This document shows, piece by piece, positions 3,142 to 13,588 of a stretch of 64,000 nt of DNA. Position numbers and translations under genes: made by a program. The notes under the pieces were generated by a model, which worked only from the letters and a program-made list of their open reading frames with translations, was not told where the DNA came from and did not search any database. Within the stretch, counting starts at the first letter, position 1, and every line of letters starts with the position of its first letter. The stretch is from Limnohabitans sp. G3-2 (GTDB lineage: Bacteria > Pseudomonadota > Gammaproteobacteria > Burkholderiales > Burkholderiaceae_C), in assembly GCF_002778275.1 (NCBI RefSeq), contig NZ_NESG01000003.1, forward strand, positions 1-64,000, read 5' to 3'.

Positions 3142-5180
3142 ACAGCCAAAGCCGTGCGGTAGCCCCCCACCCCCTTCACATAAGCCAGCAACTCCGCAAA
3201 AAACGGATGCCGGCACAGCGTGGACGAATCGCCCACCAGCAGCAGCTTGCGCCGTGCGCGGGTCATGCCCACGTTCATGCGGCGGATGTCAGACAAAAAG
3301 CCGATCTCGCCTTGGGGGTTGCTGCGCGTCAAGGTGATGGCAATGATGTCGCGCTCTTGGCCCTGAAACGAGTCGACCGTGCCCACGCTGAGCCTGCGTT
3401 GCAGCAGCAAACCATTCAGCACTTCGCTGTCTTCGATGGCGTCTTTCAAATAGTTGATTTGAGCGCGGTAAGGTGCAATCACGCCAATGGTCAGGGGGCG
3501 CCGGTCTGGGTCGGTGGGTTCACCTAACGCAAGCAACTGCTCCAGGCGCTCCAGCAGCAAGTGGGCTTCTTCGGGGTTGGCGGTGGAACGGCTTTCGGGA
3601 ATGGCCAGTTCTTGAAAACCGCAACCCGCCGTGTCGATGAATTCCACGGGCAGGTCGGGCGCAAAACGTGGGTCATCAAAGCGCGGGGAATTAAAGCGCG
3701 GATCATAAGCGGCCAAGTCGGCATGGCGCACGCTGGGGTGCGCCACCAATTGGCCGCCATAAAACTTCTCAGAGCTGAAGCCCATGATGTGCGCGTGCAT
3801 GCGGTATTGCACCTTCAGCATGCGGGCCGTGCCCGGTTGGCGCTGGATGCACTTTTCAAACAGGGTTTCGCGCAGGCCTTCGCGGCCGGCTTTTTCGCTT
3901 TTCACGGTGGGTGGCAGCTGGTGGTGGTCGCCCGCCAACACCAGGCGCTGGCCCTTGGCAATGGGAATCCAGCAACCCGGCTCCAAGGCCTGGGCGGCTT
4001 CGTCAATGAACACGGTCTCAAAGCCCAGGTGGCGAATGGCGCGGTGGCTGGCGCCCACCAGCGTGCAGGTGATGACCTGCACCGATTCGAGCACGTCCTC
4101 GGTCATGAAGCGCTCCAAATCGTCGGCGGCTTGGCGCAGCGTGCGGGCTTCTTCGCGCAGCCATTGGCGGCGCTGGCGCTCCTCAAAGCCAAAGTTGCGC
4201 ACGCGTTCGCTGGCAGCCTCTCGGTGCTGCTGGGCGGTTTGGCGCATGGCGTGCATCTTGGCGTAGCTGGCGTGGGCCATCACCCCGGCGTCCAGCGTGT
4301 GCTGGAGCAGCAGCTCCGACACGCGGCTGGGGTTGCCCAGGCGAATCACATTCACACCGCGCTCGGCCAATTTTTCGGTCAGCAGGTCCACGGCGGTGTT
4401 CGAGGGGGCGCACACCAGCACGCGCCGCTCGCGCCGAATGGTTTCCAAAATGGCTTGCACCAGCGTGGTGGTTTTGCCTGTGCCGGGCGGGCCGTGGATG
4501 ATGGCCACGTCTTGCGCCGTGACCACATGGCGCACCGCCGCCAGCTGCGAGTCGTTGAGGGCACTGGGGTAAAACAGGTCATCGGCTTGGGGCGCGCGAA
4601 AGCGGGCTGCCTGAGCGCCCAGCAGCACATCGCGCAGTTCGGCCAAGCGGTTGCCGTGGGCGGCCATGACCGCGCTCAGGGCCTGGTTCATCTCGCGGTA
4701 GCTGACCTCGTCAAAGGTCAGGTCAACACCTAATGTGCTTCCGTTGAGGCTGCTGCCGTCCAGCACCCAGTCGGGCAGCGCTTCTTTGGTGGTGGACAGC
4801 AGCAGTTTGTTGCGCCGCACGCGGGTCACCACGCCGCTCACCACGGGCCGATCTGATGCCGAATGTGTGCCCGAATAGCCGGGCGCACTGCTGAACAGCG
4901 CCGCCGCCCCCCCCACTTGGAACAAATGCAGATCTTGCCGGTGCGCTGGGCGCTCCAACTCCAGCACCACCTTGCCGCCAAAACCAATGTCTTCTTGGGT
5001 GATGGTGACGGGGTACCAAGTCAAGCCACGCCGACGGCGCTCCTTGATGCTGGCACTGGCGTTTTTGAGCTTGAACTGCGCCTGGTCTTCCTGTTGCTCC
5101 AGCTGCATGAGCGCACGCACATGGCGCAACTCGTGTTCAACAGAAAGATGTGCAGTGAAGGTGGGGTCTTGGTCGGCCAA
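3138..5180 (-). CDS. Superfamily 1B DNA/RNA helicase (DNA2/NAM7/IGHMBP2-like)
   Basis: 680 residues. An N-terminal beta-rich accessory region (1-190) is followed by the AAA helicase core. Walker A GPPGTGKTTT lies near residue 230, Walker B/motif II FIDEAAQALEP near 392, motif III LAGDHHQLPPTV after it, then motif V-VI SFQGQERDIIAITLTRS and VGMTRARRKLLL at 605-645. This is the UPF1/IGHMBP2 type of ATP-dependent 5'-3' helicase; the bacterial role is unknown. The chosen start is a TTG at 5180 with no clear ribosome binding site; an ATG about 25 codons in is an alternative. The gene is the last of a minus-strand run from yaaA. Its 3' part is duplicated twice as fragments to the left, which marks it as the anchor of an insertion hotspot. 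All helicase motifs are intact here. Confidence 0.9.
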   Translation of the reverse strand: MADQDPTFTAHLSVEHELRHVRALMQLEQQEDQAQFKLKNASASIKERRRRGLTWYPVTITQEDIGFGGKVVLELERPAHRQDLHLFQVGGAAALFSSAPGYSGTHSASDRPVVSGVVTRVRRNKLLLSTTKEALPDWVLDGSSLNGSTLGVDLTFDEVSYREMNQALSAVMAAHGNRLAELRDVLLGAQAARFRAPQADDLFYPSALNDSQLAAVRHVVTAQDVAIIHGPPGTGKTTTLVQAILETIRRERRVLVCAPSNTAVDLLTEKLAERGVNVIRLGNPSRVSELLLQHTLDAGVMAHASYAKMHAMRQTAQQHREAASERVRNFGFEERQRRQWLREEARTLRQAADDLERFMTEDVLESVQVITCTLVGASHRAIRHLGFETVFIDEAAQALEPGCWIPIAKGQRLVLAGDHHQLPPTVKSEKAGREGLRETLFEKCIQRQPGTARMLKVQYRMHAHIMGFSSEKFYGGQLVAHPSVRHADLAAYDPRFNSPRFDDPRFAPDLPVEFIDTAGCGFQELAIPESRSTANPEEAHLLLERLEQLLALGEPTDPDRRPLTIGVIAPYRAQINYLKDAIEDSEVLNGLLLQRRLSVGTVDSFQGQERDIIAITLTRSNPQGEIGFLSDIRRMNVGMTRARRKLLLVGDSSTLCRHPFFAELLAYVKGVGGYRTALAV

Positions 5181-10854: not shown

Positions 10855-11445
10855 TTACTTGAGATCGCCCGCCAAACTGGCCAAGGTGTCCGCGGCGATG
10901 TCGAGGTGCGAGGGGTAGTGGGTGTGGTCGCAACCCATTTTGACGCCAGCGCCCGCCTTGACCGCCGCAGACATGACGGGCGTGAGTTCAAAGCGCACAA
11001 AGTGCACCGCTGAGGTTTTTTCTTCGGTCTCGCGGTCCAGGTCTTCGTCCGCAATCGCGTACACGCGGGCATGGCCTTCGACCTCCACAAACATGCGGTC
11101 TTCCACGCCGATCAGTTTGGCCAACTCGCGCTTGCGCTCGTGGATGTCGACGTACTCGATCATCATGGTGGCTTTCCAGTTGCTGCCATCCGGCACCAGC
11201 GGGGCATAGGCCTCGATCTCTTGCAGGATCCCCTCTTCTTCGAAGACTTTTTCGATGCGCAGCATCTCCTGAATTTGGTAGCGGATGGTGGTTTCGCTCT
11301 CGAACTGCACGTTGATGTGCTCACCCAGTTGCACGCTGCGCAGCTTGCGGTGAGCGATCACCTCGGGCTTGTGGACCTTGCGCCACTTGGTGTAAGCCTC
11401 GAGAGACATCAGGGTCTCGGGCGTGATTTTTCCGGTCAGTTGCAT
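10855..11445 (-). CDS. DUF3501 family protein
   Basis: 196 residues matching what I recall of DUF3501: the N-terminal TLMSLEAYTKWRKVHKPEVI and RSVQLGEHINVQFES, then TIRYQIQEMLRIEKVFEE, and KATMMIEYVDIHERK in the middle. No signal peptide or membrane helix. Function is not established. It is the third gene after rubrerythrin and an Fe-S oxidoreductase (11-base gap to the latter), an order I recall recurring in proteobacteria. That suggests a role in peroxide reduction or in handling the Fe-S or di-iron proteins (inference). Its HERKRELAKL helix is highly charged. Confidence 0.85.
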   Translation of the reverse strand: MQLTGKITPETLMSLEAYTKWRKVHKPEVIAHRKLRSVQLGEHINVQFESETTIRYQIQEMLRIEKVFEEEGILQEIEAYAPLVPDGSNWKATMMIEYVDIHERKRELAKLIGVEDRMFVEVEGHARVYAIADEDLDRETEEKTSAVHFVRFELTPVMSAAVKAGAGVKMGCDHTHYPSHLDIAADTLASLAGDLK

Positions 11446-11456
11446 GGCGGTTTTCC

Positions 11457-12806
11457 TTATTTGAGACCGTAGGCTTTGCGCACCAAGGTCAAGGGGTGGT
11501 TCAGTTCGGGGGCGCCCAAACCGTTGACCTCAAAGCCTTGGGCAATGTGGTGGCCGCCCAGCGGGCAATCGGAGCTGATGAAGTCGGGCTTGGAGCCGTC
11601 CTTCATGGTGGCCATGGCCTTGAACACGGGTTTGCCGATTTTCATCGCCATCTCGTGCGACCCTTTTTTGACACCGTAAGTGCCCGCGTGGCCCGAGCAG
11701 CGCTCGATGGTGTTGATCTCGGTGTCCGGGATCATCTTGAGCATTTCTTCGGTTTTTTTGCCGATGTTTTGCACCCGGCCGTGGCAAGGAATTTGGTAGC
11801 TCACATTGCCCAAGGCTTGAGGAAATTCGGTCTTGAGCAAGCCGTCGCGCTTGCGGGCCATGAAGTACTCAAACGGGTCCCACATGGCTTCTTTGACCAA
11901 CTGGGTGTCGGTGCAATCGGGGAACATGAGGGGGATTTCCTGCTTGAACATCAGGGCGCAGCTGGGCACGGCCGCCATGATGGCGTAGCCGTCTTTGGCG
12001 TACTTCGCCAACACCGGGATGTTGGCTTCTTTGGACGCCTTCACCGAGTCCAAGTCGCCCAGTTCGAGCTTGGGCATGCCGCAGCACTTTTCTTTCTCGA
12101 CCAGCACGTAGGGAATGGCGTTGTGGTCCAGGATTTTGAGCAAGTCGTGGCCGATGCCGGGCTCGTTGTAATTGATGTAGCAGGTCGAATAAATGGCCAC
12201 TTTGCCGGGCGTTTTCTCGCCGTCCACCACGTTGACCGACTGGGCATCTGGGGCGCTCGAACGGAACTTTTGGGTGGCCAAGGAAGGCAACCAAGCGTTT
12301 TTGTCGACGCCCGCCACGCTTTCCATGATGCTGCGTGCCGCTTCGGTCTTGTTGAGCGCGTTGACCGCCTGCACCACGATCGGGATGCCGGCAAACGAGC
12401 CGTGCGTGTCGGTCGAGGCCAAAAACTTTTCGGCCGCGCCCACTTCGCCTTTTTTGAACTTGATGGCTTTGGCCCGCAGCATGGTGTGCGGGAAGTCCAG
12501 GTTCCAGGCGTGCGGCGGGGTGTAGGGGCACTTGGTCATGTAGCACAGGTCACACATGAAGCACTGGTCCACCACTTTCCAGTAATCCTTCTTGTCCACC
12601 CCATCCACTTCCATGGTGCTGGACTCGTCCACCAGGTCGAACAAGGTGGGGAACGAGTTGCACAGGCTCACGCAGCGGCGGCAGCCGTGGCAGATGTCGA
12701 AAATGCGCTCCAACTCGTCAAAGCATTTTTCTTCGTTGTAGAACTCGGGACTCTCCCAACCGAGGGCGTGCCGCGTGGGGGCCTCAAGGTTGCCTTCTTT
12801 GGCCAT
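11457..12806 (-). CDS. (Fe-S)-binding oxidoreductase, GlpC/heterodisulfide-reductase-like
   Basis: 449 residues. Two 4Fe-4S clusters lie in the N-terminal 120 residues (CHGCRRCVSLC and CFMCDLCYMTKCP). Two C-terminal cysteine-rich CCG-type blocks follow (CCGMPKLELGD near 245, and CSGHAGTYG with SSDCPLGGHH after 370). The family transfers electrons between a dehydrogenase and quinone or disulfide centres. Placed directly downstream of rubrerythrin and upstream of DUF3501, it is the likely electron supplier for the rubrerythrin, which here lacks its own rubredoxin domain (inference). Start ATG at 12806; GAGCACAAC-type ribosome binding site. Confidence 0.92.
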   Translation of the reverse strand: MAKEGNLEAPTRHALGWESPEFYNEEKCFDELERIFDICHGCRRCVSLCNSFPTLFDLVDESSTMEVDGVDKKDYWKVVDQCFMCDLCYMTKCPYTPPHAWNLDFPHTMLRAKAIKFKKGEVGAAEKFLASTDTHGSFAGIPIVVQAVNALNKTEAARSIMESVAGVDKNAWLPSLATQKFRSSAPDAQSVNVVDGEKTPGKVAIYSTCYINYNEPGIGHDLLKILDHNAIPYVLVEKEKCCGMPKLELGDLDSVKASKEANIPVLAKYAKDGYAIMAAVPSCALMFKQEIPLMFPDCTDTQLVKEAMWDPFEYFMARKRDGLLKTEFPQALGNVSYQIPCHGRVQNIGKKTEEMLKMIPDTEINTIERCSGHAGTYGVKKGSHEMAMKIGKPVFKAMATMKDGSKPDFISSDCPLGGHHIAQGFEVNGLGAPELNHPLTLVRKAYGLK

Positions 12807-12867
12807 GTTGTGCTCCTGTCTTTTTTGTTTTGGGTTTGCCTGAGAACTCTGCTTGCAAAGCCCTGAG

Positions 12868-12895
12868 AAAAACCCGCTGCACGGGGCCGTGCAGC
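12868..12895 (-). terminator. Terminator or attenuator between rubrerythrin and the Fe-S gene
   Basis: GCTGCACGG and CCGTGCAGC form a perfect 9-bp stem with a 2-base spacer. On the minus strand it is followed by GGG and five T. It lies in the 107-base gap after rubrerythrin, so it should reduce transcription into the Fe-S and DUF3501 genes. Confidence 0.75.
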
Positions 12896-12913
12896 AGGCC
12901 GGATCACCGGGGA

Positions 12914-13336
12914 TCAGTCCACCAGTTCGTTCAGGGCTTTCTGGTAACGGTTGGCATGTGAACGCTCAGCCTTGGCCAGGGTCTCGAACCAGTCGGCGAT
13001 TTCGTCAAAACCTTCTTCGCGAGCGGTCTTGGCCATGCCGGGGTACATGTCGGTGTACTCGTGGGTCTCGCCAGCCACAGCCGAAGCCAGGTTGTCGCGG
13101 GTCGAGCCGATGGGCATGCCGGTCGCTGGGTCACCGGATTGCTCCAGGAACTCCAGGTGGCCGTGGGCGTGGCCAGTTTCACCTTCGGCGGTGGAACGGA
13201 ACAGGGCTGCCACGTCGTTCTGACCTTCAACGTCAGCTTTGTTCGCGAAGTACAAATAGCGACGGTTGGCCTGGGATTCGCCTGCGAAGGCGTCTTTCAG
13301 GCATTGTTCCGTGCGCGAGCCTTTGAGTGCTGCCAT
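12914..13336 (-). CDS. Rubrerythrin lacking the rubredoxin domain
   Basis: 140 residues, a four-helix-bundle di-iron protein. Iron ligands are seen in [35 protein letters not shown] and [11 protein letters not shown]. Classical rubrerythrin is about 190 residues with a C-terminal rubredoxin (two CPxC knuckles). Here the protein ends at NELVD and no CPxC pair occurs. It should reduce hydrogen peroxide to water using external electrons. It is first in the operon with the Fe-S oxidoreductase and DUF3501. Strong GGAGAT ribosome binding site. The AT-rich upstream region carries an inverted repeat that may bind a redox regulator. Confidence 0.93.
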
Positions 13337-13423
13337 GGGTATCTCCTAGTGAGTTTTACGTTGATTGCCCTGACGACATCGCCAGAGAACCATCAGGTTA
13401 GTCTTTTACCGACCGGTCGCCTA

Positions 13424-13453
13424 ATTAATTGATGCAATACCCTCAATTAATTG
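13424..13453. promoter_or_regulatory. Inverted repeat upstream of rubrerythrin
   Basis: AATTAATTGA (13424-13433) and TCAATTAATT (13444-13453) are perfect inverted 10-mers separated by 10 bases. A second palindrome, CGACCGGTCG, lies at 13411-13420. They lie in the AT-rich 250-base gap between the divergent rubrerythrin and valS genes, about 90-115 bases upstream of the rubrerythrin start. They look like a dimeric repressor or activator site; the regulator is not identified. Confidence 0.45.
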
Positions 13454-13588
13454 AAGCTATCAGCCAAGCCCTCGGGCTTGGGCCCAGGAGAGCCAAGGTG
13501 GGCTAGGTAAAATCACCTATTTCGGACACCGATCGTCCTGCACGGCCTGCGCAGAGCTGCCGTCATTTATTTTTGAGAAGCCCCCGCC

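Follow-up and report, generated by a model that had tools for sequence, protein, structure and literature searches.

The 64,000-nucleotide stretch of Limnohabitans sp. G3-2 analysed here (hereafter the window; contig NZ_NESG01000003.1) carries a three-gene operon encoding a rubrerythrin (RBR), an Fe-S protein with CCG-type domains (RFO) and a protein of the DUF3501 family (Table 1). RBR has no rubredoxin-like domain and presumably a full set of di-iron ligands, and genes for DUF3501 and a COG0247-type RFO are co-located with it. Judged by its sequence, the operon is a Limnohabitans-type copy of the known aerobic-type rubrerythrin system (RBR-RFO-DUF3501), a set of three genes for peroxide defence in oxygen-tolerant microbes, in the description of which RFO received its name (Cardenas, Quatrini and Holmes 2016, PMC5114695). 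The original prediction made from this DNA, a co-occurring rubredoxin-less system in which the Fe-S protein supplies electrons, therefore stands in part only: the system is there, but it is not new, since its central idea is already in print in the paper just cited, which describes the trio and proposes that RFO makes up for the loss of the rubredoxin domain, and the donor role of the Fe-S protein is one that we infer. What is fresh here is a partial system in viruses, an altered second cluster site in RFO and a conserved regulator-like box; a search of the available text of PMC5114695 for the terms OxyR, phage, virus, promoter and terminator found none of them.

Table 1. Genes and sequence features of the rubrerythrin operon (positions in the window)
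Feature	Position	Strand	Basis
rbr: single-domain aerobic-type rubrerythrin, 140 amino acids	12914..13336	minus	open reading frame, Pfam PF02915, residue conservation
RFO: CCG-type Fe-S protein, 449 amino acids	11457..12806	minus	open reading frame, CCG domain, predicted-model fold matches
DUF3501 protein, 196 amino acids	10855..11445	minus	PF12007 240.9 bits, solved relative 3fjv
Hairpin and T-run, terminator-like, in the rbr-RFO spacer	12871..12900	minus	13 pairs, G-T allowed
OxyR-like (LysR-type) box, ATAG-N8-AAT-N7-ATT-N10-ATT	13421..13460	minus	starts at -124 from the rbr start codon

The reading frames and their domain matches bear out the predicted order, with the Fe-S gene and then DUF3501 following rbr. 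By their coordinates the intergenic gaps measure 107 base pairs (bp) between rbr and the RFO gene and 11 bp between the latter and DUF3501, and the DUF3501 protein of the window is 99% identical to that of Limnohabitans sp. 15K.

Proteins of the operon

Residues 12-134 of RBR match the Rubrerythrin family of Pfam, which has a ferritin-like fold, and the match to the NCBIfam rubrerythrin model (135.3 bits, cut-off 200) covers model positions 1-144 of 194 only, so that the C-terminal rubredoxin part is absent, as had been predicted. The sole cysteine, C12, lies in a variable column (N 65, C 34, H 12 and S 5 in 116 sequences). E20, E53, H56, E90, E93, E124 and H127 are invariant in all 116 unique cellular RBR sequences, and we take these seven residues to be the di-iron ligands of the window protein. 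Mean pairwise identity, computed for all three on one set of 65 genomes, is 0.844 for RBR, 0.656 for RFO and 0.609 for DUF3501; on this sequence comparison RBR is the most constrained of the three partners, RFO and DUF3501 drifting more. The solved chains nearest to RBR are 9onm, 4di0, 8fuh and 9onr, followed by sulerythrin. Of these, 4di0 is a B. pseudomallei rubrerythrin (PMC5114695), and we found no publications on solved structures of the relatives beyond the mention of 4di0 in that paper.

The label GlpC/HdrD-like, originally given to RFO, holds in so far as this is a CCG-type protein (a CCG domain plus a marginal 4Fe-4S dicluster match) with GlpC as its nearest family, though it scores below the cut-offs of both GlpC models (200.2 bits against 278, and 132.5 bits against 279.9). 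Its two N-terminal four-cysteine motifs (C39/42/45/49 and C82/85/88/93) and the four cysteines of its first CCG domain (C209, C241, C242 and C283) are kept in 149/149 unique RFO sequences, as are C341, C370 and C414 of the second, degenerate CCG domain, which brings the cysteines kept throughout to 15. The latter domain also holds H373 and H420. With E. coli GlpC as the single GlpC reference, position 371 (second residue of the CC pair) is S in 143 and A in 6 of the 149 sequences where GlpC has C, and position 417 (the last C of CxxC) is G in 77, A in 71 and S in 1, again in place of a C; H373 is found in 149/149 (I in GlpC) and H420 in 146/149 (Q in GlpC). Its residues suggest that the second CCG site, whether it holds a cluster or a metal, has been altered in a way peculiar to RFO. 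By sequence no solved relative was convincingly matched (best E value 0.044). The predicted model, with a mean predicted local distance difference test score (pLDDT) of 73.8, resembles EtfD, LutA-LutB and HdrB-type chains, as expected for CCG proteins; segments below 50 include 38-61 and 82-104, in the N-terminal cluster region, and because the model is weak there we argue no cluster geometry from it.

For DUF3501 the predicted model is a confident one (mean pLDDT 91.5), and the only Foldseek matches at E < 0.001 are the two chains of 3fjv, the sole solved relative, from B. pseudomallei. A likeness to the copper protein CrdA (Z 7.3, root-mean-square deviation 3.0, 93 residues) lies in the common range and was given no functional reading; other beta-sandwiches score below it. 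Y18, R36, E49, E60, E76, E115, H174 and D194 are present in 161/161 unique sequences. Since no column of cysteines is conserved (the top cysteine fraction of any column being 0.54 in these 161 sequences), DUF3501 is unlikely to be an electron carrier.

Linkage of the three genes in genomes and viruses

Our own samples comprised 200 genomes of the phylum, 300 of the order (taken, from the Limnohabitans match, to be Pseudomonadota and Burkholderiales) and 14 control genomes, the distribution in archaea and other phyla being taken from PMC5114695. In that survey of 4461 genomes, 185 carried all three genes and 25 organisms RBR and DUF3501 without RFO; in one organism DUF3501 and RFO lacked an association with RBR, and another had DUF3501 as its sole member. 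RFO-DUF3501 fusions are reported from Nitrosomonas (PMC5114695), the cluster is present in Acidihalobacter (PMC7760498), and several protist lineages have the trio, with predicted mitochondrial targeting and a coherent distribution (PMC7050145).

The same 11 of the 200 phylum genomes carry DUF3501, aerobic-type RBR and RFO. Scores run from 285.3 to 294.4 bits for RBR, with the next best match at 119.2, and from 635.9 to 799.2 bits for RFO, with the next at 179.8; these gaps weigh more than the membership itself, because the profiles used for RBR and RFO derive from the same genomes. Weaker matches, which fall under these gaps, were treated as different families: they are other rubrerythrins, in 44 additional genomes, and other CCG proteins, in 80. 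Within the order, DUF3501 was found in 144/300 genomes, RBR in 142/300 (E <= 1e-45) and RFO in 144/300 (E <= 1e-60), and all three in 140 of the 146 that have at least one of them, set differences being compared by eye from the lists. The claim that the three genes recur and co-occur is thus upheld, and DUF3501 and the Fe-S gene were not found to occur often without rubrerythrin, so that the link survives: a scored RBR is missing from 4 of the 144 DUF3501 genomes. One of these (G296) has a contig break, both contigs ending inside rbr with residues 109-140 left at each end. For two others a break is read from coordinates only, DUF3501 and RFO each lying less than 180 bases from a contig start in G463, and DUF3501 460 bases from one in G319 (78% complete). 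In the fourth, G433 (L114:4332-4750), rbr residues 4-64 are followed without a gap by residues 117-195 of DUF3501, and a different contig holds RFO, split in two, a sequence pattern that points to either joint decay by internal deletion or misassembly. RBR is present in G458 (70% complete), where the RFO match ends at position 291. A lone RBR (232.9 bits), with neither DUF3501 nor RFO, was found in G358 (99% complete; L110:6492-6917); this one sequence keeps the seven presumed ligands and differs at nine sites that are at least 98.5% conserved elsewhere, including Y94 and D96. The trio is missing from G426, a second genome of the window's genus, and among the 14 control genomes DUF3501 was detected in Sulfolobus acidocaldarius only.

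RBR, RFO and DUF3501 are clustered in this order in 10/10 phylum genomes chosen by DUF3501 alone (L092-L101; the window's excluded), and follow one another on one strand in 141/141 fetched loci with three complete genes (the window, 66 close relatives, those 10, 59 chosen for a shared contig and 5 others). Among 80 close relatives an rbr match, whole or in part, is found in 71, the other 9 being cut by a contig edge. Two fetched loci hold natural RFO-DUF3501 fusions. At one locus (L117:2733-5897) about 1.26 kb with two unidentified open reading frames splits RFO from DUF3501. Genes for a CNP1-like protein, a NUDIX protein and an amino-acid kinase with a PUA domain were rejected as further partners, as they look like a common chromosomal place of several trios. 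On plasmids, DUF3501 is matched in 4 of 72,556 records, each a Burkholderia replicon 2.4-3.5 Mb in size; RFO (at 1e-60) is matched in these 4 as well.

Eight genomes of the order (L103-L109 and G432), all of which also have RBR and RFO, hold another DUF3501 match at a distance from the trio; the seven stretches that were fetched hold neither of these genes around the isolated copy. Four of the second copies share two flanking genes (named malate synthase and aminotransferase in L103), and in L108 a DsrE-family gene adjoins the copy. As a clue to another function these copies were dropped, there being no redox partner common to the seven of eight that were fetched. Two partial DUF3501 matches in a further genome (G366) are probably one broken gene.

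In IMG/VR the DUF3501 profile retrieved 12 contigs (L183-L194; DUF3501 at about 4001-4570 in most), and in 12/12 an RBR gene lies directly upstream of DUF3501. The RFO profile retrieved one record, a 4.9-kb contig (L195), and the RBR profile 408 confirmed stretches; among the best 80 of the 408 (L196-L275), no DUF3501 or RFO lies near RBR within the retrieved flanks, and no DUF3501 was found in 27 whole viral RBR contigs, a test set without a positive control. A terminase is encoded in 2 of 13 tested records (G494, 201.7 kb, and G502, 399.8 kb, both among the 12 DUF3501 contigs), and 3 of 24 (G502, G511 and G516) encode a major capsid protein of the T4 type; the viral nature of the remaining contigs is that of the IMG/VR classing, and some may be cellular. 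Phage carriage of RBR is settled by a cultured phage, Pelagibacter phage Mosig EXVC030M, whose putative rubrerythrin (L276, 5995-6420) is 70.6% identical to the window RBR and is encoded next to a putative single-stranded DNA-binding protein. RBR is matched in 9 of 50,697 phage records, the 8 besides Mosig being gut sequences of less than 60% identity, and DUF3501 in none of the 50,697; no PHROGs family was found for RBR, RFO or DUF3501 at E 0.01. The seven presumed ligands of RBR are kept in 93/93 viral sequences examined. A rubrerythrin in one viral genome is mentioned in a silage study (PMC10146946), and among the matches listed from the open-licence PMC literature we found no report of viral RBR-DUF3501 pairs.

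Upstream box and spacer hairpin

The OxyR-like box upstream of rbr is a candidate regulator site. Its core (ATAG, AAT, ATT; gaps of 7-9 bases) is found in 46 of the 66 unique upstreams of the window and its close relatives, starting near -124 when these are aligned, versus 0.18% of base shuffles, box counts being inflated by shared ancestry. To score it we used what we take to be the OxyR consensus, 20 fixed positions in four contact elements spaced by 11 bp, against which the window box reaches 14/20 at -124. Scores of at least 14/20 occur in 48/66 related upstreams (0.5% of shuffles) and in 5/18 others (0.3%), and do not by themselves identify the regulator. In the 3.25-Mb genome of the window the exact core is found only three times, once at rbr and in two identical copies on contig C25, so that it marks no large regulon there. 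An oxyR gene lies beside the cluster in Sideroxydans (PMC7852563). The palindrome CAATTAATTG, also upstream of rbr, resembled an operator but was set aside for the aligned box, since of the upstreams listed just those of the window, L012 and L020 carry all or part of it.

The hairpin announced behind rbr is present as an RNA stem-loop followed by a U-run. A loose terminator scan of the region yielded 4 sites versus 5.0 expected from shuffles, and the fold z-score of the rbr-RFO spacer is modest (-2.11). The comparison across loci is stronger: a strict hairpin with a T-tract recurs in 27/66 and 17/70 unique spacers versus 0.2% and 0.4% of base-shuffled spacers, and the hairpin sequences differ between lineages. 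It is possible that the hairpin is a leaky terminator giving an excess of rbr transcript, and its recurrence fits the earlier idea that it would set the stoichiometry of the products. Separate genes permit differential expression, as has been pointed out for this system (PMC5114695).

Electron supply to RBR and comparison with known systems

Taken jointly, it seems rather probable that RBR is a peroxidase, RFO its likely donor and DUF3501 a protein acting with RBR, in an operon with an OxyR-like box and a leaky terminator. The di-iron site of RBR would reduce H2O2 or organic hydroperoxides, with electrons that, lacking a rubredoxin domain, it would take from a separate protein; RFO, related to GlpC, EtfD and HdrB, would be the likely donor in these bacteria, relaying electrons from an upstream reductant. 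DUF3501 would work directly with RBR, in maturation, metal loading or donor docking, and not as an electron carrier, and leakage through the terminator would leave RBR more abundant than the other two proteins. The peroxidase activity is supported by ferriperoxin, the RBR relative of Hydrogenobacter thermophilus: supplied with NADPH and FNR, it reduced H2O2 as well as organic hydroperoxides, and the fpx disruptant is sensitive to H2O2 (PMC3317640). A redox role for RFO in the same pathway is argued by the 15 invariant cysteines and the tight co-occurrence, and we infer that RFO is the usual donor in proteobacteria as the simplest reading of its clusters and of that co-occurrence. That DUF3501 works on RBR is suggested by the RBR-DUF3501 pairs without RFO in viral contigs and, in print, in archaea (PMC5114695). 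The window's genome, rated 100% complete, has no PF00199-type catalase; KatG was not searched for.

Several points weigh against RFO as donor and against parts of this scheme. Ferriperoxin was active in vitro with FNR and NADPH, RFO not being needed (PMC3317640). RFO is absent from the 25 organisms mentioned above (PMC5114695) and from 12/12 whole viral DUF3501 contigs, in a search that detected the control record G504, which argues against an obligatory donor, and in two genomes (G253 and G403) it lies on a different contig with RBR and DUF3501 adjacent. For sulerythrin an Fe-Zn centre has been described (PMC12833474), and metal and activity of RBR may accordingly vary. The exact box core occurs in 0/18 upstreams of more distant genomes, the box having been judged from sequence comparisons with related genomes and with base-shuffled controls, and the strict hairpin is missing from 39/66 and 53/70 spacers. 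An alternative is that RBR is fed by ferredoxin/FNR or a general reductase and that RFO serves elsewhere, for instance in repair or assembly of the RBR metal site or in other electron transfer. The NADPH- and FNR-dependent activity of ferriperoxin (PMC3317640), the archaeal (PMC5114695) and viral RBR-DUF3501 pairs and the degenerate second CCG site of RFO all speak for this, but RFO keeps its 15 cysteines in 149/149 sequences and accompanies RBR and DUF3501 in almost every genome sampled, and we regard such a supply as unlikely, if worth keeping in mind.

It is improbable that the system targets oxygen or iron (as a ferroxidase, an iron storage-like protein or an O2 scavenger) and not peroxide; the ferritin-like fold of RBR would suit such a function, as would sulerythrin, which work on O2 activation treats as an Fe-Zn and diiron protein (PMC12833474, PMC12851003), whereas the peroxidase kinetics and the H2O2 sensitivity of the fpx disruptant (PMC3317640), along with the OxyR-like box upstream of rbr, argue for peroxide. 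As for the three genes being neighbours by chance and not one system, the isolated second DUF3501 copies in eight genomes, with RBR and RFO missing from the seven stretches fetched, might be cited in favour, but the co-occurrence and co-localisation counts contradict it, and the joint decay in G433, the RFO-DUF3501 gene fusions and the eukaryotic coherence of the trio (PMC7050145) make it scarcely credible.

Within the peroxidase reading we would tentatively suggest, as a plausible proposal held with some reserve, that RBR and DUF3501 form the minimal unit. Large phages, some of them T4-like, would carry this pair, or RBR alone, as a portable peroxide defence running on host electrons, and RFO would be a bacterial add-on serving RBR, its second site having shifted from the five-cysteine form of GlpC to a three-cysteine, histidine-bearing one. 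How RBR obtains its electrons in those Thermoproteales that possess DUF3501 without RFO is a question put by the authors of PMC5114695; the viral pairs are further cases of this natural dissection, and because they exist the donor question can be tested with two proteins. The residue swap in RFO likewise points to specific sites for mutation. In the literature surveyed we found no experimental work on RFO or DUF3501, the proteins of a system that is widespread in the order of the window (nearly half of the genomes sampled have DUF3501) and reaches mitochondria (PMC7050145).

Compared with known systems, the window RBR shares with classical rubrerythrin the ferritin-like di-iron domain and differs in having no rubredoxin domain with its two CxxC motifs, while sulerythrin, 9onm, 4di0 and 8fuh, its closest solved relatives, correspond to the RBR component only. 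GlpC, subunit C of the anaerobic glycerol-3-phosphate dehydrogenase, resembles RFO in its pair of N-terminal four-cysteine motifs and its pair of CCG domains, and the cysteines of the first CCG domain align one for one; in the second, RFO is without two of the GlpC cysteines and carries the two histidines instead. The noncubane cluster of HdrB/HdrD has a five-cysteine motif, and RFO, with four conserved cysteines in the first CCG domain and three in the second, differs in this from the HdrB/HdrD-type heterodisulfide reductases. Ferriperoxin is an RBR-like peroxidase with, as in the window RBR, a single domain, the loss of which protein stopped growth of H. thermophilus in 10% O2; it differs in its demonstrated donor, FNR with NADPH, and in that the RFO gene of that organism is separate (PMC3317640, PMC5114695). 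The closest likeness is to the aerobic-type rubrerythrin system (PMC5114695), which has the same three families in a conserved cluster within the same proteobacterial lineage, a rubredoxin-less RBR and an RFO proposed to stand in for rubredoxin, and from which the window operon does not differ in gene content.

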